From Lachnospiraceae bacterium (GTDB lineage Bacteria > Bacillota > Clostridia > Lachnospirales > Lachnospiraceae), in assembly GCA_017411305.1 (NCBI GenBank), contig JAFQQI010000120.1, forward strand, positions 1 to 64,000: DNA of 64,000 nt, read 5' to 3'. Every line of letters starts with the position of its first letter. The first letter of the stretch is position 1. The notes beneath the pieces were generated by a model. The model worked only from the letters and a program-made list of their open reading frames with translations, did not search any database and was not told the DNA's origin. Positions 28,787 to 57,176 of this stretch are shown in pieces. The translations under genes were made by a program, and so were the position numbers.

Positions 28787-28793
28787 TTCTTTT

Positions 28794-29462: not shown

Positions 29463-29480
29463 ATTCTATATTTATTAAAT

Positions 29481-29987
29481 TTACAAGGGAAAGCGTATGC
29501 CTACAAGAAGCCCGTTCTTGAATGTCGGCTTTCCCCAAAAAGTAACTTCATTTTTCTGCTGGAGTACAAGTTGCACCCTGTTCTTCAGCGTCATCACATA
29601 TTCAAACCCAAGTTCCACGCCCAAGGCGAAGTCCCTGTTGCATGAACCCAGGTCAACACCCATGCGGAATCTTCCTACGCTGTTCTTTCCTCTCTTGAAA
29701 GCCGGTTTGTATGCCAGCCCGAAAGCATATGAATATCTCTCCTTCCAGAAGGATTCCATACATACTTTTTCACAATCCGGACATTCGTCCCATTGTGTGG
29801 CATAGTCAACATATGCCTCCCATGCATTGTGATATGCCGTTTCCAGTTCATAGGAAGCGGTTATGTTGAAAATTCTCGGATACATCACCCCTGTATGTAT
29901 TCCAAGGTATCTGTCCTTTTCTCCTGCCTGTACCTGTATCAGTCCGAACAACAGGGAAAGGATGACAATCATTCCTTTCTTTCCCAT
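29481..29987 (-). CDS. traO: TraO-like outer-membrane conjugation protein
   Basis: 168 residues with a signal peptide (LLFGLIQVQA). It has amphipathic strands ending in aromatic or Leu residues (GVELGFEYVMTLKNRVQLVLQQKNEVTFW...GLLVGIRFPL) as in small beta-barrel proteins, and sits directly downstream of traN, the TraO position in CTnDOT-type operons. Four Cys at 69-76 (CPDCEKVC) are unusual. The gap to traN is one base. Confidence 0.7.
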   Translation of the reverse strand: MGKKGMIVILSLLFGLIQVQAGEKDRYLGIHTGVMYPRIFNITASYELETAYHNAWEAYVDYATQWDECPDCEKVCMESFWKERYSYAFGLAYKPAFKRGKNSVGRFRMGVDLGSCNRDFALGVELGFEYVMTLKNRVQLVLQQKNEVTFWGKPTFKNGLLVGIRFPL

Positions 29988-29988
29988 A

Positions 29989-30837: not shown

Positions 30838-30850
30838 CTTTATATGATAT

Positions 30851-32667: not shown

Positions 32668-32669
32668 AA

Positions 32670-33287
32670 TTAGAATGCGTTTTTCGTTTTATACTCCAGA
32701 TCCTTGTTCTGCAAGGTCCGGTAATTGATTATCATCAACCCGTGCGGATTATTTTCCGTTCTTGTTGACTTGCTGATTTTCCCGGTTGTAACCAGTTCTC
32801 GGTAGAGGATGGATGTTCTCCTCTCGATGCGTTGTTTCCCATAATAAATGAACGACATATCATCCTTGTTGAACTTGATGGAATCCGTCATGATGGCGAA
32901 TGTCGCTGATGCGGAAATGATGTTTGAGTAGAATCCTTTTTCCTGTAAGGTATTCTTCTGTGCCAATCCGGATTCATCAATCAGATACATGGATTTTTCT
33001 ATGTTGTGGTTGATATACTTGTCGTCCGGTGCAAGGGTGAAGAAAAGTTGATGGAAGAGGTTGATATGTGCTTTCGCTTCCACCTCTATTGTCAGTTCCT
33101 CATCCACTTGTTTGGCAAGAATGGGTGTATCCTCGTCCAATACATAGATTCTTTTTCTCTCCGCCTGTGCGAAGGAGAAGGCCTTCAGTACCACGAGCAC
33201 ACAGAATATGAATGCCCCTACGATTGTTCCGATGGTAACGTATGTGTTCCATCTCTTCATTTTGTCTAAGTCTTCAATGAATGGCAT
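32670..33287 (-). CDS. traK: TraK, VirB8-like protein
   Basis: 205 residues. One N-terminal membrane helix (TYVTIGTIVGAFIFCVLVVL) and a periplasmic domain with EAKAHINLFHQLFFTLAPD and RTSILYRELVTTGKI match the TraK family of Bacteroidetes elements, considered VirB8-like assembly factors. It is two bases from the next gene. Confidence 0.9.
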   Translation of the reverse strand: MPFIEDLDKMKRWNTYVTIGTIVGAFIFCVLVVLKAFSFAQAERKRIYVLDEDTPILAKQVDEELTIEVEAKAHINLFHQLFFTLAPDDKYINHNIEKSMYLIDESGLAQKNTLQEKGFYSNIISASATFAIMTDSIKFNKDDMSFIYYGKQRIERRTSILYRELVTTGKISKSTRTENNPHGLMIINYRTLQNKDLEYKTKNAF

Positions 33288-33304
33288 AATTGATATCTTT
33301 AAGT

Positions 33305-34354
33305 TTATAATGTTCCCTTACTAACTGTACCGGTAGCTTTGCTTGAAGTACCTTGTATGAAGTGATTGGCTGATTGTATCGCTGTTGATGGTATTGCCCA
33401 ACTTGCAATCTCCGGAACGGTTCTTAAAGCCCATGCACCGACCACCATACCGATAATGGTCTGTATGGTTGTTCCTAATCCGGAACTCCAATAATTCCAT
33501 ATGCCGGATTCTCCTTCACTTATTGCTGTAAGGGTAGCCGTATCAACCTGTATTCCGTATTTCATCAACTGCATGGAGAGTATCATGACGAGATACGCCA
33601 TTGCCCCGTAAAGTGATACCGATACCATTTTCCCGACCCATTGTGTCCATGTATCTTTCCATGCGGGGAGGATGGAACATACGATATAAATAGGTCCGAA
33701 CATTACAAGCACAGTTGTATAGATGGCTTTCAAGAGAAAGATGAAATATACATGACATTGCCAGAATAATTCTCCAATCCAGACGATTGCACTTTCAATG
33801 AGATTGGCGAAATATGCTTCTTTTGCTGCTAACCAGCCAGTGATGTTATCTGTAATAGTTTCAAACCCATCGCTTATATAATCACCTATTTGCGACATAA
33901 AACTCTTATCCTCACTACCTTCTGCAGCCCGTTCTGCTTCTGCTACGGCAGCTCTTTTCTCTCTTCTTGCTTCCGCTACGTTGTCGGCAGCTTTTTGTCT
34001 TTCTTCCCTTAATTCCACAACCCTTGTCTTTTCCTGTTCAAATTTCTGTTGGAACCAGTCTTCTATCAGATTTCCCGGAGCACAGACAATGGAAACGACA
34101 CCGGTCCATTGGCTCAGAATAAAGGCAAACAGTATCGGTCTTGCGATGGTAAGTATCTCAAACTTACCGTTCAGTGTCATCATCTTGTAGGCTTGTATGG
34201 CTGCAACTATCAAAGCGAAGATTGCACCCAAACCGGATGCAGCACTTATCAGTACGGTCATGTTTGAATTTGCAAAAGTCTCAAGGTAATTGGCCAGCTC
34301 TATCATATGGTCATTGATAAAGTCCAGACCTAATGTTGCGTCCAGTGGTGTCAT
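33305..34354 (-). CDS. traJ: TraJ, VirB6-like membrane protein (paralog 1)
   Basis: 349 residues. Multiple membrane segments flank a charged coiled coil at ~110-150. Conserved core: GELFWQCHVYFIFLLKAIYTTVLVMFGPIYIVCSILPAWKDTWTQW..MVSVSLYGAMAYL, shared almost word for word with the protein at 35028-36596. TraJ proteins are the presumed VirB6-like inner-membrane channel parts. It lies 17 bases upstream of traK in transcription. Confidence 0.88.
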   Translation of the reverse strand: MTPLDATLGLDFINDHMIELANYLETFANSNMTVLISAASGLGAIFALIVAAIQAYKMMTLNGKFEILTIARPILFAFILSQWTGVVSIVCAPGNLIEDWFQQKFEQEKTRVVELREERQKAADNVAEARREKRAAVAEAERAAEGSEDKSFMSQIGDYISDGFETITDNITGWLAAKEAYFANLIESAIVWIGELFWQCHVYFIFLLKAIYTTVLVMFGPIYIVCSILPAWKDTWTQWVGKMVSVSLYGAMAYLVMILSMQLMKYGIQVDTATLTAISEGESGIWNYWSSGLGTTIQTIIGMVVGAWALRTVPEIASWAIPSTAIQSANHFIQGTSSKATGTVSKGTL

Positions 34355-44464: not shown

Positions 44465-45385
44465 TTATTTTACAGGTGAAACGACCACATTACCCTTGTC
44501 TGTAATTTCCCATTCGTTTACCGAAACGGTAGATACGGACATTTCCGTAGCGTTCATGGTCAGTGTGAAGTTATATATATAGCCTTGCTTGAACTCTTCG
44601 CTCATAGTACCCGATGCGGTGTATTCCTTACCGTCAACGGTAAGCGTAAAGGCAACACCCTTCTCTTTCAGACCGTTCGGAACGACCATCAGTTCCGTGA
44701 TGTTGCCCTCGCCTGTCATCGTATAATTTCCGCTCCATGATACGGAAGAACCGGCATTCTTCACACCCGCCAAAGCTCCCGTTCCTACATTCATGGTTGC
44801 CTCGGTACCGAAGCCGTCCGAAGCTATGCTGATGGCGGTTACTTTCCCTGTACCGGTATATGTTCCCATAACGGTAGTCACACTTACGGCAGAAAGTGCA
44901 TGTTTCATGCTGAAGTTCACGGTTGCTTCTGCATTGGAAAGACCTTCCACCCATCCGCTGTACATATAGTCCGTCTGAGTGTCAGTTTCAACCGGAATGG
45001 CTGAAATGTCTGTTACACCCGTTGAATACGGATAATATGCGGCTGCTTTACCTTCTGTGGATGAAAGGAGTATCTTTCCACCGTCCCATTCCTGTGATTC
45101 CTCTTCCCCTGTTGCGGTAAACTTCACATTCTTGTAATCGAAACCGTCATAACTGTTGCCGTCGGCATCGGTAACGGTAACTCCGATGGTTGAACCGTCG
45201 GGAAGATAGGTTCCTTTCTGGATGCTCCTTGAACCGTTGACCCATCCGATTGTCGTACCGATGGTAAGGTCCTTCACATGTGCATTGTTGACTTCCAGCA
45301 TTTCAGTGTCCTCGTTTGTACAGGATACTGCCATCAATGAAGCTGCCATTGCGGCAACATACATCATAAAATTCTTCTTTTCCAT
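44465..45385 (-). CDS. Fimbrillin-family subunit
   Basis: 306 residues. Lipobox LMAVSC (Cys 22). Fimbrillin hallmarks: GTYLPDGSTIGVTVTDADGNSYDG, AAYYPYSTGVTDISAIPVETDTQTDYMYSG, MKHALSAVSV, and a final SVNEWEITDKGNVVV strand. Its N-terminal half is very similar in layout to that of the 1-1998 protein. Confidence 0.85.
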   Translation of the reverse strand: MEKKNFMMYVAAMAASLMAVSCTNEDTEMLEVNNAHVKDLTIGTTIGWVNGSRSIQKGTYLPDGSTIGVTVTDADGNSYDGFDYKNVKFTATGEEESQEWDGGKILLSSTEGKAAAYYPYSTGVTDISAIPVETDTQTDYMYSGWVEGLSNAEATVNFSMKHALSAVSVTTVMGTYTGTGKVTAISIASDGFGTEATMNVGTGALAGVKNAGSSVSWSGNYTMTGEGNITELMVVPNGLKEKGVAFTLTVDGKEYTASGTMSEEFKQGYIYNFTLTMNATEMSVSTVSVNEWEITDKGNVVVSPVK

Positions 45386-45397
45386 ATCGTAATATTA

Positions 45398-47170
45398 TTA
45401 GTTATACAGTTGGTTATAGAGATTGTTCTCCTTTATCAGTTCCGCTATTTCCGGGTCAAGTTCCCCCCGTTCAATCTTGCTTTCGTCCATCTTGCAGCTT
45501 TTCAGGAAAAGCTGTACCGCCAACTCGTCCATATTGAGCCTTGCGTAAAGGACTGCAAGCAGATATTCCCTGTCCGCCGTTTCCGGCTGTTCAAGAAGTA
45601 TGTTCACTGCCGTACCGTTATATCCCAAGGACATATAACATATGGCGGTATTCATGTCCCGGTACTCAAGGAGTTTCGGCATTGCCTCCTTATATTTCCT
45701 TTCATCCATCAACTTTATCGCTTCAGCATATTCCGTATCAATTACATCGGTGTACATCACGTCTTCCACCATACCTCTGCGTGAGAGATGGAATACAAAG
45801 TCCACCGTTCTGAGCTTCGGATAATATTCCATTTTCAGTTTCTTGTAAACGGCAGGGAAAGCCACGGATATTTTCCGTTCCCGTTCATCAGGATCCTGTG
45901 TTTTTTTAATCAAGGCCAATATGTCTTCCTTCTGCTCGATATCGCTTTCAGACAGCATCTGCATCAATTTGTCCCAATTTTCAGCCTTATACTGTACCTT
46001 CACCAAATCAACGGTTTCGGCATTGCTCTGTAGTGCCGGTTCAAGATATTTCTTGAGTGATACGGCACGTTTTTCGGCCAGTATTTTGTTCGCCTGGAAC
46101 GATCCTTCCGGTGAGCATGCCGGTATGAGTACGATGGAGTCCACGATAAATTCGTTACCCTCGTTGATTTCCTTCATTTTCCGGTAGACTTTCTCTATCT
46201 CTTCCCTGTTGTTGTGCAGTGTATCATCCACAACTGTACTTCCTGCTGGGAAGTGGATATATGCACTTGTTGTTTCAGTTACTTTTCTTTCCACCGTTTC
46301 ACGGATATATCTCGGTTTCCTGTCAAGGAACTGTGTCATGGATGAAATGAAATAGTTCAGTGTATCACCGCTACGAAGGTGGTAGGTTGCCATTCCCAAG
46401 TCTTCCACTTTCGCAGTGAAGTACAGTTTCAGTTTCCGTCTCATCTCTTCCGTCCGGAAATCCTGTTTGTAGTAATATTCCAGATTTTTCCGGTTCTTTA
46501 CGATGGTATCAAGAACCCATGATCGGTTGTACCGTTCGTTTCCTTCCGTCCATAGGTCAAGTTCCCTTACCAATACATCCGTGGTACTGTCATTCCTGTA
46601 GAAATATGGGTAGAAATCCTTTCTTCTTTCCACCCTCTTCTTGTTTTTATTGATTCTTCTGTTCAGTTTCCTTTCTTCATACCATTTCCTTCTTCCCTCC
46701 ATATTCCGGAATTGTTCACCGGCCACCACGACGGATTTCAGTTCATGTTTCTCTCCTTCATTGTCAAGAGTAGGATGTATTGTCACCCTCCAGTCCTTTT
46801 TAGTATATGTTTCCGGAACGCTAACCATGAAGGAGATGGTAATGTTCCCGTTCCTCTCTGGTACGGTCTTGGACTTTGCCGTTACAGTCACCTCGTCAAG
46901 CTGCGAGGTAAGCATGTATTCCCCGTTCGTGCTGTCACGCACTGATGTCATTACGGTCTTCTCCTGTCCGTCCTTATCCTTGAATGTTATATGTTTTCCC
47001 GTTTCCACCTTGTTTTCTTCCGTCTTTTTTTCGGCGTTTGCAGGTTGTCGTACATTGACCAGTCCGCTCACCATATAGGCTTCCTCCAGTCTGCGTTGTG
47101 TAGAACATCCGGACAGGATGGAAAAGGCGATGACCGGCATCAATATCGGTAAGGCATGTATCTTTTTCAT
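45398..47170 (-). CDS. DUF3868/OmpA-like fimbrial-operon lipoprotein
   Basis: 590 residues. Lipobox FSILSGC (Cys 22). A beta-rich N-terminal region with a strongly basic stretch at ~185-205, an OmpA-like peptidoglycan-binding segment (~330-420: FPAGSTVVDDTLHNNREEIEKVY...VLIPACSPEGSFQANKILAEKRAVSL) and a helical TPR-like C-terminus. This is the DUF3868-type partner of fimbrillins. It probably links the fimbrial base to the cell wall. Confidence 0.75.
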   Translation of the reverse strand: MKKIHALPILMPVIAFSILSGCSTQRRLEEAYMVSGLVNVRQPANAEKKTEENKVETGKHITFKDKDGQEKTVMTSVRDSTNGEYMLTSQLDEVTVTAKSKTVPERNGNITISFMVSVPETYTKKDWRVTIHPTLDNEGEKHELKSVVVAGEQFRNMEGRRKWYEERKLNRRINKNKKRVERRKDFYPYFYRNDSTTDVLVRELDLWTEGNERYNRSWVLDTIVKNRKNLEYYYKQDFRTEEMRRKLKLYFTAKVEDLGMATYHLRSGDTLNYFISSMTQFLDRKPRYIRETVERKVTETTSAYIHFPAGSTVVDDTLHNNREEIEKVYRKMKEINEGNEFIVDSIVLIPACSPEGSFQANKILAEKRAVSLKKYLEPALQSNAETVDLVKVQYKAENWDKLMQMLSESDIEQKEDILALIKKTQDPDERERKISVAFPAVYKKLKMEYYPKLRTVDFVFHLSRRGMVEDVMYTDVIDTEYAEAIKLMDERKYKEAMPKLLEYRDMNTAICYMSLGYNGTAVNILLEQPETADREYLLAVLYARLNMDELAVQLFLKSCKMDESKIERGELDPEIAELIKENNLYNQLYN

Positions 47171-47172
47171 GA

Positions 47173-47418
47173 TTATTCCGTTTCCTCTTCAAATGAGATT
47201 GTCAGTTCCCATTTGAAATTGTTCGTATAATAGTAACTGTTCATAATCTTGTCGAACTTGACGATAGCACCGAGTTCCTCCAGTTCGTATAGTTTCTTGG
47301 ACAGGGTTACAGGGTTCACCTTCATTTCCTTGGCCAGTTGTGCCCGTCCTCCGGTCCGACCTTTCTCAATCCTTTTGTGAAGCTTGTACAGTCGCTTCAT
47401 GTTGCTCATAAAATCCAT
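47173..47418 (-). CDS. Small winged-helix regulator within the fimbrial operon
   Basis: 81 residues. Residues ~8-55 form a helix-turn-helix (LHKRIEKGRTGGRAQLAKEMKVNPVTLSKKLYELEELGAIVKFDK) of winged-helix type. It lies between the DUF3575 and DUF3868 genes with 2- and 14-base gaps, so it is co-transcribed with them and likely controls the fimbrial operon. Confidence 0.7.
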   Translation of the reverse strand: MDFMSNMKRLYKLHKRIEKGRTGGRAQLAKEMKVNPVTLSKKLYELEELGAIVKFDKIMNSYYYTNNFKWELTISFEEETE

Positions 47419-47432
47419 ACCCTCCTTGTTTT

Positions 47433-47978
47433 TTAAAATAGATAATTGAAGCTAACGTCAAACTTTGCGGGAAAAATTCTGAATCCACGTTCATTTCCGT
47501 AGTTTCGTGAATTGCTTTTCCATCCGCATTTGTCATAGTCCGCATATCCGGCACCTACACCCACTTCCATTTCCACATTTATCCTTTTGCCGAGAATCCA
47601 GCTGTAACCACCTCCGATACCGCCACCGAAACATCTGCCGTCATAACGATATTTATGATTCATCCATCCACCTACATGAAATCTTGAAGCGATGCCATAG
47701 GCAGAGATGAACCAGTTTGTATGTGGAGATAGCAACCAGTATCTTGCTCCAGGCATGACCGTCAGTTGCTGGAATCTTGAATTGTCATTGAACTTGAAAG
47801 GGTTGTATAACACCGGAAGATGTAGGGAAACTCTTTTGCCTACAACACAGTTTATTTCCACATTGGGCGTTGCTGTCAGCCACATTGTACCGCTTGTCCT
47901 TACACCGATGGACTGTGCAAAAGTTATTGCGGTAAAGGCTATAGACATTATATGAATACAAAACAATCTCTTATTCAT
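47433..47978 (-). CDS. DUF3575 outer-membrane protein
   Basis: 181 residues with signal MNKRLFCIHIMSIAFTAITFAQ. It has the DUF3575 pattern: GTMWLTATPNVEINCVVGKRVSLHLPVLYNPF, PGARYWLLSPHTNWFISAYGIASRFHVGG, GGIGGGYSWILGKRINVEMEVGVGAGYADYDKCG. It is a small beta-barrel typical of the first accessory gene of Bacteroides fimbrial operons. Confidence 0.85.
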   Translation of the reverse strand: MNKRLFCIHIMSIAFTAITFAQSIGVRTSGTMWLTATPNVEINCVVGKRVSLHLPVLYNPFKFNDNSRFQQLTVMPGARYWLLSPHTNWFISAYGIASRFHVGGWMNHKYRYDGRCFGGGIGGGYSWILGKRINVEMEVGVGAGYADYDKCGWKSNSRNYGNERGFRIFPAKFDVSFNYLF

Positions 47979-48000
47979 AGGGCTTCACTGATTATGGGAA

Positions 48001-48025
48001 GAGGGGAAACGGTACATCTCCCCTC
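48001..48025 (-). promoter_or_regulatory. Hairpin after the major fimbrillin gene
   Basis: Perfect 7-bp stem GAGGGGA / TCCCCTC (48001-48007 with 48019-48025). On the minus strand the T-run precedes, not follows, it, so it is more likely an mRNA-stabilising or partial attenuation hairpin that lets the first gene be made in excess. Confidence 0.45.
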
Positions 48026-48043
48026 CTCTTAAAAAAAATACAA

Positions 48044-49054
48044 TTAGTTGTTGTCCGGAGTCTGAATATCACCACCTGTCAGCGGAACGTCTACCCATTG
48101 GGTAATTTCAACAGAAGTCAATGAGAGGCCAGTACCTTTCAAAGTAAATGTATATTGGTAATTGTTACCGGCAGCATAACCTGCAGCCAATGCCGGGATA
48201 TCCAAAGTATAGTCTTTATTATCAACGGTTACTGTAACCTCTGCATCATCAGCTGCAACGGCTGCAACCGGATAGAGCAAGAGACGTGGCAATTTATCAG
48301 CAGCAGTCACATCCATCAAAGTATTTTCAGCATCCGGAGCCAAAGTAATACCAGCAGTAGCAGCTTCACCACCAGTAATAACACCGTCAGCGATATTCAT
48401 GGCAGCGTTACCAATCATGATGGCAGACTTACCGGTCTTGTTCTTCAAAACAATCTTAGAAACCTTACCTTCACCCGGATAAGTAACAGTATTGTCAATA
48501 GTCTGTATGAACTTGAAAGAAACCATAGCCAAAGCGTGGTTCATGGTCAAGTTTACAGTTGGTAATGCATTCGAGATACCTGTTACCGGTGTAGCCCACA
48601 TATAGTCTGTCTGGGTATCGTCTTTTGTACCATCCGATTGTCCTGTACCTTGGTTAGCCAATACGGTAGTAGCAATTTCGGCAGGGTTTGTGTTGGCTGC
48701 ATTATACGGATAGTTTGCATAAACTACACCTTCAACTGAGGAAAGGATGATCGGTTGTGTAGCACTCCAGGTTGCACCTTGTGTATACTGGACATTTTCA
48801 GTAGATACCCCGTTAGCGTCATCATTGTATGCTGTATAGCCGGAAGTACCACGGTAGATATACAAACCGAGAGATTCCCCGTTTGAGAACGCATCAGCTG
48901 TGATACCTGCACGGCTTGTGATGTTTTCCAAGCCGACACTTGAAATCTGCAACTGGTTAGGTGTACTGTTGTTTACTACATCGTCATCATTGTTACATGA
49001 TGTCATTCCTACGAAAGCTGCTGCGAAAGCAGCCATTACATAAAACTTTTTCAT
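48044..49054 (-). CDS. Major fimbrillin
   Basis: 336 residues. Signal with lipobox FVGMTSC (Cys 20). Fimbrillin signatures: ANYPYNAANTNPAEIATTV, DTQTDYMWATPVTGISNALPTVNLTMNHALAMVSFKF, LLLYPVAAV and a last strand TSVEITQWVDVPLTGG. The codon choice and Ala/Thr-rich composition differ from the neighbours, as expected for a highly expressed surface polymer. First gene of the fimbrial operon, directly after traF. Confidence 0.85.
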   Translation of the reverse strand: MKKFYVMAAFAAAFVGMTSCNNDDDVVNNSTPNQLQISSVGLENITSRAGITADAFSNGESLGLYIYRGTSGYTAYNDDANGVSTENVQYTQGATWSATQPIILSSVEGVVYANYPYNAANTNPAEIATTVLANQGTGQSDGTKDDTQTDYMWATPVTGISNALPTVNLTMNHALAMVSFKFIQTIDNTVTYPGEGKVSKIVLKNKTGKSAIMIGNAAMNIADGVITGGEAATAGITLAPDAENTLMDVTAADKLPRLLLYPVAAVAADDAEVTVTVDNKDYTLDIPALAAGYAAGNNYQYTFTLKGTGLSLTSVEITQWVDVPLTGGDIQTPDNN

Positions 49055-49100: not shown

Positions 49101-49394
49101 TCAGGTCGTTTTGATTAAGTTGGTCACGATCCAAGTACCTTTATATTCCTTTCGGTTATGCAGTCCTTTCTTTATATTCTTGTTGATTCGATATATTCCG
49201 AATCCGAGAACGGACGCACCTACCAACAGTGCTATGAAGAAGCCGAAGAAAGAAAGGCATATTCCGACAGATACCAGGATAGCAAAGAAAGTCCCTGCCC
49301 CCCAAAGTATGTTCTGTCCTTTCAGACCGAACATGATAAGTGGTTTTTGCAAGCCTCTGTAGACGTTATATGACTGGTATTCTTCCGCTTCCAT
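49101..49394 (-). CDS. traF: TraF (DUF4133), VirB3-like
   Basis: 97 residues. NVYRGLQKPLIMFGLKGQNILWGAGTFFAILVSVGI...FFIALLVGASVLGFGIYRINKNIKKGLHNRKEYKG: the TraF pattern with two membrane segments (29-50, 53-73). It is an inner-membrane component of the transfer channel. Thirty bases after traE. Confidence 0.92.
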   Translation of the reverse strand: MEAEEYQSYNVYRGLQKPLIMFGLKGQNILWGAGTFFAILVSVGICLSFFGFFIALLVGASVLGFGIYRINKNIKKGLHNRKEYKGTWIVTNLIKTT

Positions 49395-49424: not shown

Positions 49425-49781
49425 TTATTCGAAGAACAACGGCAATGCTTGAGCTGCTGCAATGAGGAATATACATGAACCGACAATCAGCATGATTGAC
49501 TTCTTTACGTCCTGTTCCTCGTTGTTCATCTTGATAAACACACTTATCGCACCACCAAGTACGACTACCCCTGCAATGGCATAGATTAGATTCTGCACCA
49601 TCGGGATATAAGCCTTGATTTCGGTTGTCACCTGTGCGATTGCACCTTGTCCTGCTGCCCCGTTCTGTGCGAAAGCAACAAAGGACATCATCATAGTCAA
49701 GAGGAACATACATGCTCTTTGAGCTATACTTTTCATCCCCTTGACTGCGTTCGTTACGAACTTTCTGATTCCTGTTCTCAT
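49425..49781 (-). CDS. traE: TraE (DUF4134), VirB2-like pilin
   Basis: 118 residues. Signal (FLLTMMMSFVAFA) then two hydrophobic helices (VQNLIYAIAGVVVLGGAISVFI; SIMLIVGSCIFLIAAAQALPLFF) and NEEQDVKKS between them: the TraE family of conjugative transposons, presumed conjugative pilin. Confidence 0.92.
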   Translation of the reverse strand: MRTGIRKFVTNAVKGMKSIAQRACMFLLTMMMSFVAFAQNGAAGQGAIAQVTTEIKAYIPMVQNLIYAIAGVVVLGGAISVFIKMNNEEQDVKKSIMLIVGSCIFLIAAAQALPLFFE

Positions 49782-49811: not shown

Positions 49812-50180
49812 TTACGCCGTAGCCGGTATTATGCCTCTGAAGAAATTCTCACCTGTTTCCTCTTCAAAAATTTTCTTGAGTTCCAATGAAGAGAACCCCC
49901 CGCAATAGTTTACTTCTATTGTTTCTTTTTGATTTTCTTCTTCGTTTTCTTCAGCCGGTACAGGATTGTCCTGTTCCTGTTCTCCACCTGCCTTATACCC
50001 GGTGAGGATTTCCGCATCTTTAGGGACATAGCTGTCCACGGAGTCGGAAATGTCAATATCCTCCCCTCTATCTTCATTATTACTTGTCTTGCCGGACATA
50101 TAAAGGTCGTATCCTATCATACCGGCGAAGTACAATGTATATACGCCCATTACCCCTGCTGCAAATTCATAAAAGCCCAT
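49812..50180 (-). CDS. Membrane-anchored acidic protein in traC/traD position
   Basis: 122 residues. One N-terminal membrane segment (AAGVMGVYTLYFAGMIGYDLYM), then a very acidic linker (EQEQDNPVPAEENEEENQKE) and CGGFSSLELKKIFEEETGENFF. It precedes traE by 30 bases. Its ATG is only 7 bases from the left 35-bp inverted repeat, and no clear TAnnTTTG facing it was seen in the 90 bases upstream. In the flipped arrangement it would follow the TraB-like gene by about 40 bases. Confidence 0.6.
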   Translation of the reverse strand: MGFYEFAAGVMGVYTLYFAGMIGYDLYMSGKTSNNEDRGEDIDISDSVDSYVPKDAEILTGYKAGGEQEQDNPVPAEENEEENQKETIEVNYCGGFSSLELKKIFEEETGENFFRGIIPATA

Positions 50181-50187
50181 ATCTTAA

Positions 50188-50222
50188 TCTTCTCATTAAA
50201 CGACCGATTTGTGAAACAATTA
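50188..50222. repeat. 35-bp inverted repeat, left copy (putative crossover site)
   Basis: Perfect reverse complement of 57102-57136. It contains an imperfect dyad (TTAAACGACCGA / TTGTTTCACAAA arms) of the size used by serine invertases. It lies between the traC-position gene and the serine recombinase gene. Confidence 0.85.
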
Positions 50223-50242
50223 AATTGCTGGGGCTATCTTTG
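50208..50242 (+). promoter_or_regulatory. Promoter of the serine recombinase
   Basis: TATCTTTG at 50235-50242 is a full -7 element 25 bases before the ATG. A TTTG at 50208-50211 lies inside the inverted repeat at a 23-bp spacing, slightly long. Recombinase binding at the crossover site would therefore overlap its own promoter. Confidence 0.55.
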
Positions 50243-50266
50243 CAGTCGATTTTAAGAAATTAGGAT

Positions 50267-50866
50267 ATGAAAATTGGATACGCACGAGTTAGTACAAAGG
50301 ATCAAAATTTTGATTTGCAAATTTCAGCCTTAGAAAAGGCTGGATGTGAGATTATCTATAAAGAAAAAAGAAGTGCCGTAAAGGATAGACCAGAATTAGA
50401 AAGAATGATGGAGTATCTTAGAAGTGGAGATATAGTCGTCGTTTGGAAACTTGATCGTTTGGCACGTTCATTGCAACATATTTTGTTCTTAATAGAAGAG
50501 TTGAAAAGAAGAAATATAAGAATAATTAGTTTGTCTGAAGGAGTTGATACGGATACTCCTACAGGAAAATTCTTTTTGTCAATTACGGGTGCTTTTGCTG
50601 AATTAGAACGTAATTTGATTGTAGAGAGGACGCAGGCAGGATTACAGGCGGCCAGAGAGAGAGGGGTGAAATTAGGACGGAGAGAAGGTATTAGTGAAGA
50701 AAGAAAGGTTATAATGGAGGCAGCTTGTAACCTTTACAGGGATAGTGAAATGACTACACCGGATATATGTGCATCATTGGGTATGTCTTCGGCAACTCTA
50801 TATCGTTACCTTAAACTTTATGGGATAGCCAAAAAAAACAATCCGGGGAGAAGGAAAAAAAATTAA
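50267..50866 (+). CDS. Serine recombinase (resolvase/invertase family)
   Basis: 199 residues. Catalytic N-terminal domain with YARVSTKDQ (Ser9) and VWKLDRLARS (Arg pair), then helix E and a C-terminal helix-turn-helix (TPDICASLGMSSATLYRYLKLYG). It has the length and layout of Hin/Gin/TnpR-type small serine recombinases. It begins 45 bases inside the left 35-bp inverted repeat, so it is the natural candidate for inverting 50.2-57.1 kb. Convergent with repA; the two stop codons overlap. Confidence 0.88.
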   Translation: MKIGYARVSTKDQNFDLQISALEKAGCEIIYKEKRSAVKDRPELERMMEYLRSGDIVVVWKLDRLARSLQHILFLIEELKRRNIRIISLSEGVDTDTPTGKFFLSITGAFAELERNLIVERTQAGLQAARERGVKLGRREGISEERKVIMEAACNLYRDSEMTTPDICASLGMSSATLYRYLKLYGIAKKNNPGRRKKN

Positions 50867-52011
50867 ACTTCTTCAAGGAATAGAATAGATGTTTGCGACA
50901 TATCTTTTACAAGATTCTTAATGGTTGAATATACATATTTCCCCTTGTGAATAACATTGCAATCAGGCTTTGCAAAGAATTCTACAAGTTGTGATATTTT
51001 TTCAAGTACAGGCAAATGGTTTTCTATTGTTATCAAATTGCTTATTTCAGTGGCCATCTTTTCATCCATTAAAATATAGCTACCTCGGAGAAGGTCGTTT
51101 ACTTGGCGTTTCTTCAGTTCTAAGCCACCTTGCATTTGGCTACTTAAAGAATATGTATTTATGATTTTAAAAACCAAGTTGTCAGGTTCACCTGCTTTAC
51201 GTTTGCCTGGAGCATATTGTTTGTCATATTCAAAGTAGAAATCGGCTTTTCCGTTATGAGCCATTTCTTTCATCTCCTTTTGGGCTGGAACTATAACACG
51301 TTTAACAAAATCCTTAAATTCTGAATATGAATTTTCCAATCTTAGATACCTCCTTAATGATTCCATTTTTACAGTACAACCTCCTTCCTCTGCAAAAGCA
51401 GAAAGGTACAGACAGAATCGAGGAGTATATGCGTTAGTGGCTGATAAAATAGTATATTGTAAGAATTTGGTAAAACCGAATTCCATATTCAATAACATTG
51501 TAGCTGTTGTCTTTTTTATCTTTATGTAAACGTTATCTACACGCCCACTTTCTGGCAAGCGAACACTACATAAATTGTCAAATTCTCGCCATATTTTCTG
51601 ATTTTTATCTCTTACAGGTATTTCCACTGGAATCGTTACTAACATTTTAAGAGCTTCTTTTAATTGTCTGTATTGATTCCTATGAACTCCAAAACTATTC
51701 ATTGGTATCTTTAGCAAGATGGAACTTGGATCACTTTCATCAAGAAAGTCTGAAGAAGAGAATAATGTATTTTCAGTTGAGATTTTATTATAATGGTTGT
51801 ATATAGCTTCCTGTATGTTTTCTTGTAATGCACCGATAATTCGGACAAAAATTTTTGATTGAATAAGGGTGTAATTATACCGCATAAAAGTTACAGCGGT
51901 TGGTTGAACCAACCATACCAGTTCATTTTTATCTTGAGAAGGAAGCGGAACAGGTAATGTCTGTCTTGATATTCTTCTTTTATTGCTATTATTACTGTTC
52001 AAGGAAGTCAT
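50863..52011 (-). CDS. repA: Plasmid replication initiator (Rep_3 family)
   Basis: 382 residues. Two winged-helix-type halves: N-terminal VWLVQPTAVTFMRYNYTLIQSKIFVRIIGALQENIQEAI and a middle with ATNAYTPRFCLYLSAFAEEGG..VKMESLRRYLRLENSYSEFKDFVKRVIVPAQKEM, the initiator signature of Rep_3 proteins. It would bind the iterons at 52524-52874. Preceded by an XRE gene that overlaps its start by 20 bases. Confidence 0.88.
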   Translation of the reverse strand: MTSLNSNNSNKRRISRQTLPVPLPSQDKNELVWLVQPTAVTFMRYNYTLIQSKIFVRIIGALQENIQEAIYNHYNKISTENTLFSSSDFLDESDPSSILLKIPMNSFGVHRNQYRQLKEALKMLVTIPVEIPVRDKNQKIWREFDNLCSVRLPESGRVDNVYIKIKKTTATMLLNMEFGFTKFLQYTILSATNAYTPRFCLYLSAFAEEGGCTVKMESLRRYLRLENSYSEFKDFVKRVIVPAQKEMKEMAHNGKADFYFEYDKQYAPGKRKAGEPDNLVFKIINTYSLSSQMQGGLELKKRQVNDLLRGSYILMDEKMATEISNLITIENHLPVLEKISQLVEFFAKPDCNVIHKGKYVYSTIKNLVKDMSQTSILFLEEV

Positions 52012-52414
52012 ATTTAGGCTTGAGATTGAATTCTATATTTTTTTGCAAAGCAGATAGGTACGACAATAAAGTGTCACGTCTATACCCTCTTCCCTTTTCA
52101 ATGCTGATAATTCTACTTGGTGTTATCGATGCTTTTACTTGAATATCGAATTGTGTCATCTGACATTCTTTACGGATGGACGTTAATTCGTTTCCTAAAT
52201 CTTCAAGTGTCTTTATTTCTTTATTGTTCAATATGAATTGATAACCTAAAGCTTGGATGTATATAAGTAAACTGATTACATTATAGTTGGAACCAGTTTC
52301 TATATTATTCAATACAACTTTTTGGAGAGGAGTTATCCCCTCAGGAAAAACAACCTTTAATTGTTTTTCATTTCGTAAATACTGTATTTTCTTTTCGATT
52401 TCCTGAAGAGTCAT
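51992..52414 (-). CDS. XRE-type regulator upstream of repA
   Basis: 140 residues from ATG 52414; an earlier in-frame start codon lies within promoter P4 and is rejected. The C-terminal half has an XRE helix-turn-helix (LTSIRKECQMTQFDIQVKASITPSRIISIEKGRGY). The N-terminal half is helical. It likely controls repA copy-number expression, with which it is co-transcribed. Confidence 0.75.
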   Translation of the reverse strand: MTLQEIEKKIQYLRNEKQLKVVFPEGITPLQKVVLNNIETGSNYNVISLLIYIQALGYQFILNNKEIKTLEDLGNELTSIRKECQMTQFDIQVKASITPSRIISIEKGRGYRRDTLLSYLSALQKNIEFNLKPKYDFLEQ

Positions 52415-52431
52415 AAGTTTATATTTTGCCA

Positions 52432-52463
52432 CAAAAATAGCAATAATAAACGATACTACCAAA
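52432..52463 (-). promoter_or_regulatory. Family-1 repeated promoter P4
   Basis: Minus strand TTTG (52460-52463), 20-bp spacer GTAGTATCGTTTATTATTGC, TATTTTTG (52432-52439). It drives the XRE-repA pair. Confidence 0.75.
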
Positions 52464-52523
52464 TTATAAACAAGTTATTTGCTTATGGTATAAAAGTTTA
52501 TATTTGTCCGTTTTCTTTACCTT

Positions 52524-52874
52524 GTGTGTAATCTGTCCCATTTAAGTGTGTAATTTGCAGTAGGATGAAGTGTGTAATCTGTCCCATTTGTCGTACACAA
52601 TCTTTGAGAGAGGGTTTACAGATGTAAAAAAACGAGAAAATCGGCTCTTAAAATCTTTCTATAAATCCTTAATTTATCGCTATTTTGAGCCAAATTCCCT
52701 TATTTTGTAAATATAAACGAAAATAGTGTGTAATCTGTCCCATTTGCGATTTTGGAAGTGTGTAATCTGTCCCATTTGCAAAAAATGTGTGTGTAATTTG
52801 TCCCAATTAAGTGTGTAATTTGTCCCAATTAAGTGTGTAATCTGTCCCAATTAAGTGTGTAATTTGTCCCATTT
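52524..52874. other. Iteron replication origin
   Basis: Eight full 20-bp iterons GTGTGTAATYTGTCCCAWTT start at 52524, 52570, 52726, 52758, 52789, 52811, 52833 and 52855, plus a partial one at 52546. The last four are in strict 22-bp register. AT-rich DNA follows (52920-52960). Together with the Rep_3 gene this is the expected oriV. Confidence 0.88.
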
Positions 52875-53174
52875 GTAGTATGTAAACATACTGATTTCCA
52901 ATAAGTTACAGAACCCTAATACTTCTTAATATATAATTAATATATATCTAATACCTTTTTTCAATTTTCATTTTCGACGATTATAGACATAAAGCGGAGC
53001 CTTAAAACAATCTAACAATCCATGCGGCATATAAAAAACAAATGTTCTGCTTATGCAAAGATAATAAAAACAACAATAGGGAAGAAATTAAGTCTGTCAT
53101 GTTTTAAAGTGTTTCTAAATGTTAAAATTCGTTTTTACTTTCCCTGCCGTATAGTTTCTTATTAGGAAAAGAAG

Positions 53175-53182
53175 TATATTTG
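53175..53182 (+). promoter_or_regulatory. Possible mob promoter -7 element
   Basis: TATATTTG, followed by CTTGCGG, lies 107 bases before the mobC start. No matching TTTG -33 was found at 20 bp. Weak call. Confidence 0.35.
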
Positions 53183-53198
53183 CTTGCGGAAATAAATA

Positions 53199-53237
53199 GC
53201 AAGATGTGTTTTTGTGTACACAAAAACCTTATCTTGC
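53199..53237. other. Inverted repeat before mobC, candidate oriT or regulator site
   Basis: GCAAGAT...TTTTTGTG-TA-CACAAAAA...ATCTTGC: a 39-bp two-part palindrome in the non-coding DNA upstream of mobC and the relaxase gene, where oriT is normally placed in small Bacteroides mobilisable plasmids. No T-run follows, so it is not a simple terminator. The nick site cannot be assigned from sequence. Confidence 0.45.
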
Positions 53238-53288
53238 CGGATAAACCGGGACAAATTATTTCGCAACTCAATAATTTTCTAATGTTAT

Positions 53289-53675
53289 ATGACGGAGAAA
53301 AAGAACAAAACCAGGCAGTTACATATAAGACTAACGGAAGAACAGGAAAAGCTTATAAAATCGAAGGCTGTTAATTATCCCACTCTATCAGGATATATAT
53401 TGGATGCAGCTCTTCATTTTGATGATAAGAATGGGATACGAAAATTAGAGGTTATAGAATCTTGGGCTTCAGAATATCAAAAATGGAAAAATGACATCTC
53501 TCATTTGTCTTCCAATATAAATCAGTTGGCTCATTATTGTAACCAATGTAAAGCTAATGGTATTTTAAACAATTCCGTTGTCGAGGAAAACAATAAGTTG
53601 ATGAAGGAGTGGAATAATATTTCCGGTAAGATAGTTGAATTCCAAAAATGGCTTGTTAGGTTTGCTAAAAAATAA
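53289..53675 (+). CDS. mobC: MobC-like relaxosome accessory protein
   Basis: 128 residues. The N-terminal ribbon-helix-helix (RQLHIRLTEEQEKLIKSKAVNYPTLSGYILDAAL) and helical C-terminus with SSNINQLAHYCNQ..ANG...N match MobC proteins, in which NINQLA is the recurrent motif. It helps the relaxase open oriT. The relaxase gene follows after an AT-rich gap of 119 bases. Confidence 0.9.
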   Translation: MTEKKNKTRQLHIRLTEEQEKLIKSKAVNYPTLSGYILDAALHFDDKNGIRKLEVIESWASEYQKWKNDISHLSSNINQLAHYCNQCKANGILNNSVVEENNKLMKEWNNISGKIVEFQKWLVRFAKK

Positions 53676-53794
53676 TTTTATATATTTATGATTATATAAG
53701 TTTAGATATTTATGGATATATAGTTTTATAATTATAGAAATATATAATTATATATATTTTTAAATGTATATAGAAATAATTATATAAGTATAAA
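53676..53794. other. AT-rich gap between mobC and the relaxase gene
   Basis: Nearly pure A/T with repeated tatata/ataatta runs. No gene or clear promoter element seen. Confidence 0.5.
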
Positions 53795-55345
53795 ATGATT
53801 GTTCGAATTCTGAAGGGTTCAAGTTCTTTTTCTGCCGTGGGTTATAATGAAGAGCGGGTTAAGAATGGTGAAGGACAGTTGCTATGTTCCAATAATTTTG
53901 GTTCAACAGCAAATGTTCTATTTACTAAACCGTCAGATTATAAAAATTACTTAAAGGATTGGAGTAGCAGAAATAGTAGGATAAAATCACCACAGTTACA
54001 TGTTACAATATCATGTAAAGACAAATCTTATAATCCTGAAGAACTTAAAGAAATTGGGATAAAGTGGTTAGAAAAAATGGGGTATGGTTCTAATCCTTAT
54101 ATGATTTATTTTCATTCTAACACAAAGAATAACCATATTCACATCATAACTTCAAGAATAGATGGACAGGGAAGAAAAATCAATGATAGTTATGAAAAAG
54201 AAAGATCAGTGAGAATACTGGATAGCATTATTGGTTTGGATAGATATGCTTTGCTTAGGAAGGAAATAGCTAAAGCTTTAAAATATTCGTATACATCAGA
54301 AAAACAATTTTGTCTTATTCTTGAAAGTAGAGGATTCCGTGTATTTGATAGTGGTAAGAGTCTTAAAATATTATCTGGCGGAGAAAATGTAGAAATTGAT
54401 AAAGAGTTAATAAATTTCTGCATGAACAAATACAGACATGAACTTACGAAACAGGAAAAGAGTAAATTATATGCTTTGATAAAGAAATACTCAACAATTC
54501 TTCCCAAAGATGAATTTTCTGAATTTATGAAAATGAAATTTGGACTTAATTTCATATATATGGGTAAGAAAGACAGTCCTTATGGTTATTGTATCGTTGA
54601 TGACGCTAATAAGCGTGTCTATAAAGGAAGTGAAATCTGTTCTTTAAAATTATTGCTTTCCAATCTTGAACGCAATAAGGAAATCGATGTGGAAATAGAA
54701 GTGTTGCTTAAAGATTATTTTTACAGAAACAGATATGCAAATTCAAAGGAACTAAATCATATGTTAGGCAAATATAGAATGAAATATTATGATGGGAAGA
54801 TTATCAATAAATATACTAAGGAAACTAAACTGGTAATGCCAAGAGCTTTCAATGAATTTATAGCTTATAATAATAAACTGCGTTATGTAAGTAATGTATA
54901 TAATCCTCAAACAAATGGTGAATATGAATATTTGAGTAAAAGATTTGTTATCAAAATAGAAGATTTAAAAAGAATTGGTTGTAAATCTTCTGTTAATGAT
55001 AACTCTTATTATAAAGAATTGATTGAGGAAATATTAAAACTAAATGGAAATCTAAGAGATGAATTGAACTCTTTAGGTATTAGTGTCAGAAAAGTCGGGC
55101 AGGAATTTATTTTTATCGACGATGATAGGGATGTTGTTTACAGCAATGAAAGAATAGGTCTTAATTATTCTTTGTTAGAAGAATCGATGACTTTAGATGT
55201 ACCTGTAAGATTCTACGATAACGATGAATTTGCTACCAATAATAATGAAGAACTCATAGATGTAATAGATTCATTGAGTGATATGATATATGTTAATACA
55301 TCAATGGGTGGTGGTGATAATCCTAAAAAACGACGGAGGAGATAA
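53795..55345 (+). CDS. mobA: Relaxase/mobilisation nuclease
   Basis: 516 residues. The N-terminal ~160 residues carry the relaxase motifs: a Tyr-containing start region (SFSAVGYNEERV), QLHVTISC, and NNHIHIITSRID (HxH metal-binding motif III). The rest is a long helical domain, and the C-terminus is basic (KKRRRR). The layout fits MOB_P-type relaxases of Bacteroides mobilisable plasmids. AT-rich compared with the tra operon, which suggests the replication-mobilisation block had a different origin. Confidence 0.88.
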   Translation: MIVRILKGSSSFSAVGYNEERVKNGEGQLLCSNNFGSTANVLFTKPSDYKNYLKDWSSRNSRIKSPQLHVTISCKDKSYNPEELKEIGIKWLEKMGYGSNPYMIYFHSNTKNNHIHIITSRIDGQGRKINDSYEKERSVRILDSIIGLDRYALLRKEIAKALKYSYTSEKQFCLILESRGFRVFDSGKSLKILSGGENVEIDKELINFCMNKYRHELTKQEKSKLYALIKKYSTILPKDEFSEFMKMKFGLNFIYMGKKDSPYGYCIVDDANKRVYKGSEICSLKLLLSNLERNKEIDVEIEVLLKDYFYRNRYANSKELNHMLGKYRMKYYDGKIINKYTKETKLVMPRAFNEFIAYNNKLRYVSNVYNPQTNGEYEYLSKRFVIKIEDLKRIGCKSSVNDNSYYKELIEEILKLNGNLRDELNSLGISVRKVGQEFIFIDDDRDVVYSNERIGLNYSLLEESMTLDVPVRFYDNDEFATNNNEELIDVIDSLSDMIYVNTSMGGGDNPKKRRRR

Positions 55346-55418
55346 TTATAAATGTTTATAAATATATAGTTTTAGATTTATATATTGATATGTTTATAGA
55401 AATTTTTTTTCGTTATTA

Positions 55419-55450
55419 TTTGGTAGTATTATTTATTATTCTTACATTTG
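55419..55450 (+). promoter_or_regulatory. Family-1 repeated promoter P5
   Basis: Plus strand TTTG (55419-55422), 20-bp spacer GTAGTATTATTTATTATTCT, TACATTTG (55443-55450). It drives the lipoprotein-parA-traB-like genes and is inside the presumed invertible segment. Confidence 0.75.
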
Positions 55451-55489
55451 CAAAAAATTATAATTGTTTCACTTATTAAATGTAGATTT

Positions 55490-55954
55490 ATGAAAAAATT
55501 AATTTGGGTAGTAATGGCTGCCATTTTAAGTTTTGGTATTGTGTCTTGTTCCAGTTCTGATGATGACCCCACAGAACAAGTTTCCAAAAACAAGGGAATC
55601 TTTAAAGTTGTGGTAACTCAAACAGGTGAATTGGATAAATTTGTTTTTTCTTCTTCTGTGAATGGGGGGGATGCTGCAAAAACAGGAGTTTTTGAAAGTG
55701 GTACTTCTAAAGATTTAGGGATGGCTTATCAGTTAACCGATGCTGAAGCTTGTAGAAATACCTATTCTTATCAAACAGACAAAAATGGAATGTTGCTGAT
55801 GGCAACAGTTGGTGTCTATGCAAAAGATGGATATGAGGATAAAAAGATAACTATAAATATGAAATTGTATCTTGACAATAAAATTTTGGGTGAAAAAGAA
55901 GAAACTTTTTCAGAAGGAGTTATCCAGATAAATTCTCATGATTATGTAAACTAA
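55490..55954 (+). CDS. Small lipoprotein of unknown function
   Basis: 154 residues from ATG 55490; an upstream start would fall within the promoter leader. Signal MKKLIWVVMAAILSFGIVSC with a clear lipobox, then SSSDDDP and a beta-rich domain (GIFKVVVTQTGELDKFVFSSSVNGG). It is 11 bases upstream of parA. Surface exclusion is possible but not shown. Confidence 0.65.
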   Translation: MKKLIWVVMAAILSFGIVSCSSSDDDPTEQVSKNKGIFKVVVTQTGELDKFVFSSSVNGGDAAKTGVFESGTSKDLGMAYQLTDAEACRNTYSYQTDKNGMLLMATVGVYAKDGYEDKKITINMKLYLDNKILGEKEETFSEGVIQINSHDYVN

Positions 55955-55965
55955 ATAATAGAATT

Positions 55966-56643
55966 ATGCCTGTCATTGTATTTGCTAATCAAAAGGGGGG
56001 AGTAGGAAAATCTACTCTTGCTGTAATGTATGCCAATCATCTTTCTGGTGTCAAAAATAAAAGGGTGACTGTTTGGGAAACTGATGTCCAGAAGAGTATT
56101 TATGAACAAAGGAAGGATGATGAGTTGACTTGGGGAAAGGAAAATATGAAATATGACGTTCATTACATACAATTAGATACTCTTCAAAATTCTGAAGCAA
56201 TGATGGTAGAAGCCAAAGAGGTCTATAAAGATGATATTGTCATTATTGATGTTCCTGGTAATATAACTGATAATTATATTGCTCCTTTGTTGATTTATGC
56301 GGATTTTATTATTTGCCCATATATGTATGAAACAAAAGTTCTTCAAAGTACAACAACATTTATTAAAGTTTTGAAGAAATTGAAGAAGATGTTTCCAGAA
56401 GTAATGAATCCTAAGATTCTTTATGTTCCTAATAATATAGATCCGAGAGAAGGTACAACAAAAGAACTTGAACAGCGAATGCAGGTTGATGATATATTCA
56501 GAAAGAATGGTGGTGGAGAAGTTTTGCCTAAAATTCATCAGCGTGCCGATGTTAAGAGATTAAATACATATATGAATACTCAAAAGCAGGAATACATAAG
56601 TTCTGCATGCTTTTCTCAACTCGATAAACATATTTTAGAATAA
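55966..56643 (+). CDS. parA: ParA-family ATPase, TraA-like
   Basis: 225 residues. Walker A KGGVGKST at 10-17, VVWETDVQKS in place of the usual D.D.Q, Walker B DDIVIIDVPG. ParA-type proteins start the tra operons of CTnDOT-type elements (TraA) and also serve partition. The next gene is TraB-like, supporting TraA identity; partition is the alternative or additional role. Confidence 0.85.
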   Translation: MPVIVFANQKGGVGKSTLAVMYANHLSGVKNKRVTVWETDVQKSIYEQRKDDELTWGKENMKYDVHYIQLDTLQNSEAMMVEAKEVYKDDIVIIDVPGNITDNYIAPLLIYADFIICPYMYETKVLQSTTTFIKVLKKLKKMFPEVMNPKILYVPNNIDPREGTTKELEQRMQVDDIFRKNGGGEVLPKIHQRADVKRLNTYMNTQKQEYISSACFSQLDKHILE

Positions 56644-56702
56644 TTTTAATAATTTTATTTTCATTTTATTTCTCTGTAACAAATTAAAGCCATAATTTTG
56701 CC

Positions 56703-57104
56703 ATGTCAAATGAAAAAAATAAAAAAGGTGCTGTTTCTGCAAAGTTGCCAGGCGGCATAAGATCTTTGATATCAGATGATGATGATACTCCTATTTTGGA
56801 ACCAAAATTGAGTTCTACTACAAAAGAAGAGAAAAAAAATTCTCTTAAAAAAGGGAATTCAATATTTGAGAAAGGAATGAGTATTGAAGAAAGAATCAAA
56901 TTCTACAAGCAAAAGAGAATTGAAAAAGAATCTTTGTATGTGGATGAGGAAGTGAAACAAGTGCTAAAAGCTTATTGTTCAGCTAAAAAGGCTAATAAAT
57001 GTAAGCTTACAGAGCTTGTTTCAGCAGCATTAAGTGAATTTATTGCAAACCATAACGATATGATTAAAGAGGCTATTCAAGAGAATAAAAATTTACTTGA
57101 ATAA
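56703..57104 (+). CDS. TraB-like (DUF3408-type) protein
   Basis: 133 residues. A disordered, charged N-terminal half and a helical C-terminal domain (SLYVDEEVKQVLKAYCSAKKANKCKLTELVSAALSEFIANHNDMI) like DUF3408/ribbon-helix-helix partners of ParA. Its stop codon TAA is the first three bases of the right 35-bp repeat; the repeat would recreate the stop after inversion. Confidence 0.7.
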   Translation: MSNEKNKKGAVSAKLPGGIRSLISDDDDTPILEPKLSSTTKEEKKNSLKKGNSIFEKGMSIEERIKFYKQKRIEKESLYVDEEVKQVLKAYCSAKKANKCKLTELVSAALSEFIANHNDMIKEAIQENKNLLE

Positions 57105-57136
57105 TTGTTTCACAAATCGGTCGTTTAATGAGAAGA
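57102..57136. repeat. 35-bp inverted repeat, right copy
   Basis: Perfect reverse complement of 50188-50222. The 6.9 kb between the two copies holds recombinase, repA, origin, mob and par genes. Confidence 0.85.
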
Positions 57137-57144: not shown

Positions 57145-57176
57145 AAAAAGGAACACTTTTATAGGTGTTCCTTTTT
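57145..57176. terminator. Bidirectional intrinsic terminator
   Basis: Stem AAAAAGGAACAC / GTGTTCCTTTTT (57145-57156 with 57165-57176), loop of eight. It lies just outside the right inverted repeat and so stops whatever transcript points out of the segment on that side. Confidence 0.85.

Follow-up and report, generated by a model that had tools for sequence, protein, structure and literature searches.

Invertons of the Mpi/Fin type in Bacteroides rewire a promoter to an operon with a serine recombinase and inverted repeats, the shufflon recombinase is the tyrosine recombinase Rci, and the tra operon of CTnDOT has a fixed gene order. The invertible promoters of Bacteroides, with their serine recombinase and inverted repeats, are covered by a review (PMC12632263), and the shufflons of IncI1 and IncI2 plasmids, which vary the PilV protein, are described as a plasmid-borne inversion tied to conjugation (PMC5430464). 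Here, we analyse the segment 50188-57136 of a 64,000-nucleotide stretch of DNA from a Lachnospiraceae bacterium (GCA_017411305.1, contig JAFQQI010000120.1, positions 1 to 64,000; this whole stretch is called the window). The segment holds a plasmid core between two inverted sites. We propose, with a probability of roughly 0.74, that this core is an invertible module whose inversion, acting as a switch at the parB/traC junction, would either connect the operon of a type IV secretion system (T4SS) with the mob-par promoters or leave those promoters reading into a terminator.

The locus shares traits with several described systems. Three marks of an inverton are present, namely inverted sites that match, a gene for a site-specific recombinase next to one of them and, in pBF9343-like relatives, both orientations. 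In contrast to the Mpi/Fin invertons, what inverts would be all of the plasmid core (6.9 kb; flipping the rest of the molecule would be the same event) instead of a short promoter, and the recombinase lies far under the cut-off of the Mpi master invertase family (NF009949; 65.4 bits against 272). Shufflons vary PilV, whereas here the link of the entire T4SS operon to its promoters would change; of the conjugation-linked inversion systems of plasmids that we found, the IncI2 shufflon comes closest (PMC5430464). A 2025 inverton survey reports that one group of invertons lies close to genes for relaxase and MobC, accompanied by restriction S subunits and by recombinases of the tyrosine type, an enzyme class different from that of the window (PMC11892184). 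As in CTnDOT-type tra operons, the window encodes a TraG-family ATPase (TIGR03783), TraM, DUF4138/TraN and DUF4134, which together identify a Bacteroidales (CTnDOT-type) T4SS. Its gene order would become collinear with theirs after a flip, but is at present split at traB/traC by the recombinase and the sites.

The plasmid pBF9343 and about 30 related plasmids have the same succession as the window: traC, site, recombinase, repA, mobC, relaxase, parA, parB and site, with the tra operon on the other side. Like the window, this family has matched inverted sites, and both orientations occur among its records. The window fits the family by gene order alone, with no megablast-level match between the DNA sequences; its recombinase and relaxase are 50% and 30% identical to those of pBF9343. 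The annotated core genes of pBF9343 all read in one direction, whereas repA of the window points towards traC, and in pBF9343 no fimbrial genes separate the DUF4133 gene from the large transfer gene that comes next. We found no description of tra-region inversion in these plasmids in the open literature; an earlier mention for pBF9343 may nevertheless exist. This plasmid is said to encode an invertase (FinB), for which the literature search turned up no text.

A recombinase gene and two matched inverted sites

The window belongs to a 79,332-bp contig of a metagenome-assembled genome (MAG; 2.89 Mb, 82.6% complete). The circularity of the element is left unsupported because the contig has no terminal overlap at the 20-399 bp tested. 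The features of the proposed switch are as follows.

49812..50180, - strand: traC-position gene, first of the tra operon (by position; weak homologue in G194)
50188..50222, + strand: site 1, the left-hand 35-bp inverted repeat, flanked by the traC-position and recombinase genes
50267..50866, + strand: serine recombinase, 199 amino acids, putative invertase (Resolvase PF00239, E 3.5e-46)
50863..52011, - strand: repA (Rep3 domains), pointing at the recombinase and traC in the present orientation
51992..52462, - strand: 156-amino-acid protein adjoining repA, without Pfam match
53289..53675, + strand: mobC / NikA-like relaxosome protein (Pfam domain scan)
53795..55345, + strand: MobA/VirD2-type relaxase (Pfam domain scan)
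55448..55954, + strand: PLCC-type lipoprotein (Pfam domain scan)
55966..56643, + strand: parA (TraA-position) ATPase, CbiA/ParA domain (domain scan)
56693..56700, + strand: TAnnTTTG promoter-like motif TAATTTTG, a motif match only, beginning 10 bp 5' of the parB-position ATG
56703..57104, + strand: parB/traB-position gene, 133 amino acids (by position), whose stop lies within site 2
57102..57136, - strand: site 2, right arm of the inverted repeat, its place conserved in six lineages
57145..57176, no strand assigned: bidirectional terminator hairpin beyond site 2 (-17.4 kcal/mol, z -5.75, U run on the + strand)

The first-pass annotation of this DNA had described a segment bounded by perfect 35-bp inverted repeats, opening with a serine recombinase and carrying repA, mobC and a relaxase, and all of this was borne out: the two 35-nt arms are 100% complementary, with 6879 nt between them, and the listed domains lie in the genes they enclose. 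A 30-nt core of the repeat occurs exactly twice in the window, whereas the mean number of matches over 100 shuffles was 0.00, and no further copy was found in its own genome or in the 79,332-bp contig. The stop codon of the parB-position gene (TAA, 57102-57104) makes up the opening three bases of the right arm, and at the other end the traC-position ATG (50180) is 7 bp from the edge of the 35-bp arm (50188), or 9 bp if the 30-bp core is used. In two MAG elements with a recombinase 56% identical to that of the window (L046 and L047), the interval between traC and the recombinase gene carries the dyad TAGTTTCACAAAACGACCGATTAATGAAACTA, which has AAACGACCGATT in common with the window repeat. Because of this common dyad, the 35-bp repeat looks like a complete dimeric recombinase site and, as judged from sequence, like the crossover site of the neighbouring enzyme.

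A second, inverted copy of the site is also found at the parB-position stop in G194 (L093:1842), G195 (L096:10318), G197 (L087:13226) and G196 (L090:13503), and the complete plasmids pBACSA01 (Phocaeicola salanitronis) and pBF9343 (Bacteroides fragilis) show the same arrangement. We count six lineages (the window, pBF9343 and its kin, pBACSA01, G194, G195 and G197), since the site sequences of G196 and G197 are identical. The recombinase gene adjoins site 1 in all six, and its products are 50-77% identical. The site sequence varies among lineages, yet the two copies agree within each of them, sharing 35 exact bases in the window, 18 in pBF9343, 23 in pBACSA01, 25 in G194, 19 in G195 and 13 in G197. 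The match at the parB stop beats all 4785 other 120-nt windows on both strands (1315, 602, 664, 999, 550 and 655 per lineage), which for G194, G195 and G197 span fetched stretches rather than whole elements; as the region was picked after the relatives' matches had been seen, this is a test of uniqueness and not a blind prediction. In five lineages out of six, the exactly matching stretch and the stop codon overlap. In pBACSA01, the exact stretch begins 5 nt past the stop, which falls in a longer copy with one mismatch.

Two of these elements are integrated: G194 has a 40-bp direct repeat at a tRNA-Ser gene and G195 a 15-bp attachment repeat at the 3' end of the tmRNA gene, and a Phage_integrase-family gene adjoins mobC in each. 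The presence of the site pair in integrated elements speaks against a purely plasmid-maintenance role. In both, the two sites are on separate contigs that we infer to belong to one element. Homologues of the 156-amino-acid protein of the window also adjoin repA in these two elements.

The closest solved structures to the window recombinase, over residues 1-141, are the DNA invertases 4m6f and 3uj3 (Gin), and solved Tn3 and gamma-delta resolvases are also among the matches. Within 37 genomes of the genus, its best match in another genome is 41% identical. Across 397 genomes of the family, it matched one other genome (G305) at a cut-off of 1e-40, the pBF9343 recombinase found no relative in other genomes at 1e-45, and neither did ParA at 1e-18. 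Distant recombinase genes in G305, G010, G004, G024 and G031 are 34-45% identical by tblastn, and the par/tra genes of this set are absent from the 12-20 kb around them, bar a weak coupling-protein match in G010. Searching with the window genes by tblastn, we saw tra context at 4 of 38 recombinase loci and none at the other 34, three of which have a weak relaxase match. At least 5000 PLSDB records match the recombinase; among five opened from the 25 matches listed, pBACSA01 shows the arrangement, and plasmids of Pedobacter, Chryseobacterium, Runella and Emticicia (recombinase 50-54% identical) have other neighbours, in one case a Tn3 transposon.

Searches with other parts of the locus returned little. 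Exact-site scans of viral contigs with the window, pBACSA01 and pBF9343 sites gave 0 matches each, and a ParA search of viral contigs found no relative. No match was obtained with the DNA of 49000-58400 by megablast against plasmids and phages, nor with the parB-position protein by tblastn against plasmids; against 194 related genomes, the same DNA gave only short matches outside G000. As a candidate identity for the segment, we rejected a transposon with terminal inverted repeats (by eye, no target-site duplication beside the arms; the same places in relatives are traC and the parB-position stop). The segment also lacks the marks of a Tn3-type resolution system (the sites are inverted, and there is no transposase among the eight segment proteins scanned).

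Gene orientation among related plasmids

Where the recombinase gene stands beside traC, the gene order is broken at that junction. All four plasmids examined that lack it there (pBFY46, B. ovatus BFG-258, Pontibacter akesuensis Paks1 and P. kalidii pls1) have the collinear order ParA, small gene, traC, DUF4134 and DUF4133, as had been predicted for the flipped segment. The relaxase gene is just upstream in these plasmids, with other genes in between in BFG-258. No serine recombinase was found by tblastn in pBFY46 and BFG-258. The Pontibacter plasmids encode near-identical serine recombinases of 228-229 amino acids (L124:2586-3275 and L126:1325-2011), 25-39% identical to the six and situated away from the parB/traC junction; read whole, these two plasmids have no junction repeat of at least 13 bases elsewhere. 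Separately, a ketoacyl-acyl carrier protein synthase III gene lies beside a TetR or helix-turn-helix (HTH) regulator gene in pBACSA01 (L098:25815-27540, just past site 2) and in BFG-258 (L104:13425-15150).

We determined the orientation of 31 pBF9343-like records by comparing the strand of ParA with that of traC-traE-traF. This was done by strand alone for 27 of them, and the junctions themselves were read in pBF9343, CP072225, CP072214 and CP018939. The order is split in 29 records and collinear in one (NZ_CP072214.1), while the best place is collinear, with a second that is split, in the last (NZ_CP018939.1). The records are not independent draws, because several are surely the same plasmid.

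The two exceptions supply the opposite junctions that the first-pass annotation had expected among relatives. The records CP072214 (B. xylanisolvens CL11T00C41) and CP072225 (NZ_CP072225.1, B. thetaiotaomicron CL11T00C24) hold one and the same plasmid from two different species, and the CL11T00 strain names suggest that both strains come from one human donor. The two copies are collinear over 5782 and 6510 bp. A block of 42,902 bp is inverted between them (99.96% identity), and its breakpoints fall on or next to the two sites. CP018939 (B. fragilis Q1F2, 73,970 bp) has clean ParB|traC, SR|TetR and traC|SR junctions (SR, serine recombinase), with an identical 28-bp site in each. Its sequence comprises two copies of a 19.9-kb tra block, two oppositely oriented copies of an 11.9-kb core and a single 10.4-kb stretch. 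Whether or not it is an assembly walk, the deposited sequence supports both junction types. Inversion within the plasmid family is thus well supported at the level of sequence. We infer catalysis by the window recombinase, reversibility in the window plasmid and an effect on tra expression and transfer.

Predicted junctions and competing explanations

In the mechanism that we propose, the recombinase would act on two inverted dimeric sites, and the core 50188-57136 would thereby be inverted against the remainder of the molecule. As the segment now lies, transcription of mobC-relaxase-parA-parB would cross site 2 and run into the terminator at 57145-57176, and the tra operon (from 50180 leftwards to the coupling protein gene, 26627) begins 7 bp past site 1, where no promoter signature for it is apparent. 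Once the core has flipped, the site would still hold the parB-position stop and traC would follow, so that the T4SS operon would be read from the mob-par promoters and the fimbrial genes behind traF would be read along with it. The modelled flipped junction indeed retains the stop, with the traC-position ATG 39 nt after it, against the roughly 40 bases given in the first-pass annotation; across the six lineages, this ATG sits 9-38 bp from the site core.

Scans for the promoter-like motif TAnnTTTG, run from traC to the recombinase start and 60 nt into the recombinase gene, found it on the traC strand in none of the six lineages, in keeping with the earlier view that traC lacks a clear promoter, and on the recombinase strand in five of six. 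The motif is present 10-11 bp before the parB-position ATG in the three lineages checked (window, pBF9343 and pBACSA01). The promoter before this gene in the window comes down to a motif match: TAATTTTG fits TAnnTTTG, with no TTG at the spacing tested. Similarly, the gene called TraB-like has the position of traB, and its name rests on that position, as domain scans of its product gave no convincing family match. The terminator proposed at 57145-57176 was recovered, and the terminator scan scored its hairpin on the - strand. Hairpins past site 2 have z values of -5.75 in the window, -3.29 in G195, -3.07 in pBACSA01, -2.98 in CP072225, -2.41 in G197 and -1.71 in G194.

A number of observations weigh against an active switch. 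The predominance of split records (29 of 31, plus the window, pBACSA01, G194, G195, G196 and G197) means that flipping may be rare, and the window plasmid itself is represented by one contig, in the split state only. Three B. fragilis records with a 100% identical traC region (NC_006873, CP036556 and CP083624) are all split, and pBF9343 was reportedly re-assembled at the same length (PMC6927303); together, these suggest slow or biased flipping in culture. CP072214 has a 175-bp duplicate of the 5' end of traC beside the recombinase gene (L106:48589-48944), and its ParB|traC junction holds the right arm of site 2 up to GAAAC; it is therefore not a clean central crossover, and the duplicate is either a scar or an assembly artefact. 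CP018939, deposited as 'circular' (L110/L111), ends within its second parB copy and, given its repeats, reads like an assembly walk across both isomers of a plasmid of about 42 kb, so that it is probably a walk over mixed isomers. Because the collinear Pontibacter plasmids carry another serine recombinase, collinear order does not imply that the enzyme is absent. There is no convincing hairpin after site 2 in pBF9343 (z 0.38), and that of G194 is equalled by 11 of 200 shuffles. Lastly, repA and the gene beside it face traC in the window, G194 and G195, and the minus strand of the window carries TAnnTTTG signals at 52439 and 51697, so that the split ('off') state may leak.

This last point is also the starting place of an alternative in which the inversion is old and frozen, there is no switch in the window, and tra is now expressed by read-through from the repA operon across the antisense recombinase gene. 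No terminator is apparent by eye between repA and the recombinase gene, the two motifs could serve such transcription, and most records are in the split orientation. Yet the two copies of the site remain identical over all 35 bp, the recombinase frame is open, and every annotated core gene of pBF9343 and pBACSA01 points away from traC, so that read-through is no family trait. We consider a frozen inversion improbable.

The remaining explanations give the enzyme another task. It could resolve multimers, as the resolvases of Tn3-type res systems do, with site 2 a relic or by-product: some relatives of the recombinase are Tn3-type resolvases (one plasmid context, and the solved Tn3 and gamma-delta structures), and in pBF9343, pBACSA01 and G196, dyads close to where the recombinase gene begins look by eye like accessory subsites, with weak dyad scores. 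However, one site per monomer suffices for resolution, while a second, inverted and matched copy is kept in all six lineages and inverted products are seen, which makes this account very improbable. In the yeast 2-micron plasmid, inverted FRT sites divide the molecule and flipping by FLP during replication amplifies copy number. The recombinase and sites of the window could likewise serve replication, a core flip with the origin amplifying copy number and any effect on tra being incidental, given that the core carries repA and that the sites divide the molecule in the same manner. But a copy-number role does not call for sites placed at the start of traC and at the parB-position stop, as they are in all six lineages, and two elements that are integrated in the chromosome and have tyrosine integrases retain the pair as well; we regard a replicative role as the least probable of these accounts.

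The tra operon, its cargo and the reach of the proposed switch

Beyond traC, the tra operon and its cargo comprise the following features.

49425..49781, - strand: traE (DUF4134; domain scan)
49101..49394, - strand: traF-position gene, homologous to the relatives' DUF4133-position genes
44465..49054, - strand: fimbrial block (Mfa_like_1, DUF3575, two more genes, Mfa_like_1; domain scan)
38067..40964, - strand: TraG-family ATPase (TIGR03783, above cut-off)
26627..34354, - strand: TrbL/TraJ-like, TraM, DUF4138/TraN and coupling protein (T4SS-DNA_transf; domain scan)

The fimbrial genes that had been placed behind traF are there, between traF and traG on the same strand, and one relative also has such genes behind traF. 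Surface-associated modules may, as judged by gene order, share the gated operon. Mfa_like_1, DUF3575, a small gene and a gene for a 590-amino-acid protein follow traF in the same order in the window (44465-49054) and in G195 (L045:3538-8673). In the integrative and conjugative element (ICE) of G194, traF is followed on the tra strand by genes for GldK-like (FGE-sulfatase), GldL, GldM and GldN proteins (L044:2758-8276), at the place of the window's fimbrial genes.

Other genes were seen in passing. A second, different serine recombinase (Resolvase plus HTH) is encoded at 58265-58915 on the - strand of the window and adjoins an Abi_2-like gene. A reverse transcriptase (RVT_1; L043:12558-14072) and an 1834-amino-acid protein with helicase and Eco57I methylase domains (L043:6709-12210) are encoded on the same contig, possibly by defence genes.

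With less assurance than for the window itself, we lean towards a wider reading, in which such a switch is widespread in Bacteroidales: plasmids and ICEs would carry a dedicated recombinase and a site pair precisely at parB/traC, with the stop built into the site, and flipping would make conjugation phase-variable, heritable and bistable. A clone would then divide into two kinds of cell, one with the T4SS operon connected to the mob-par promoters and one with these promoters ending in a terminator, and the cargo behind traF would be fimbriae or, in one ICE, core genes of gliding and the type IX secretion system.

It has long been asked why, in a conjugative strain, most cells do not act as donors. 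If the proposal is true, a DNA switch would give heritable donor and non-donor states that could be read in any long-read data set. Differences in orientation between deposited plasmids of the pBF9343-like family can be biology and not assembly error. The same architecture is found on pBF9343 of B. fragilis NCTC 9343 and on resistance plasmids, and thus bears on the spread of plasmids in the gut.

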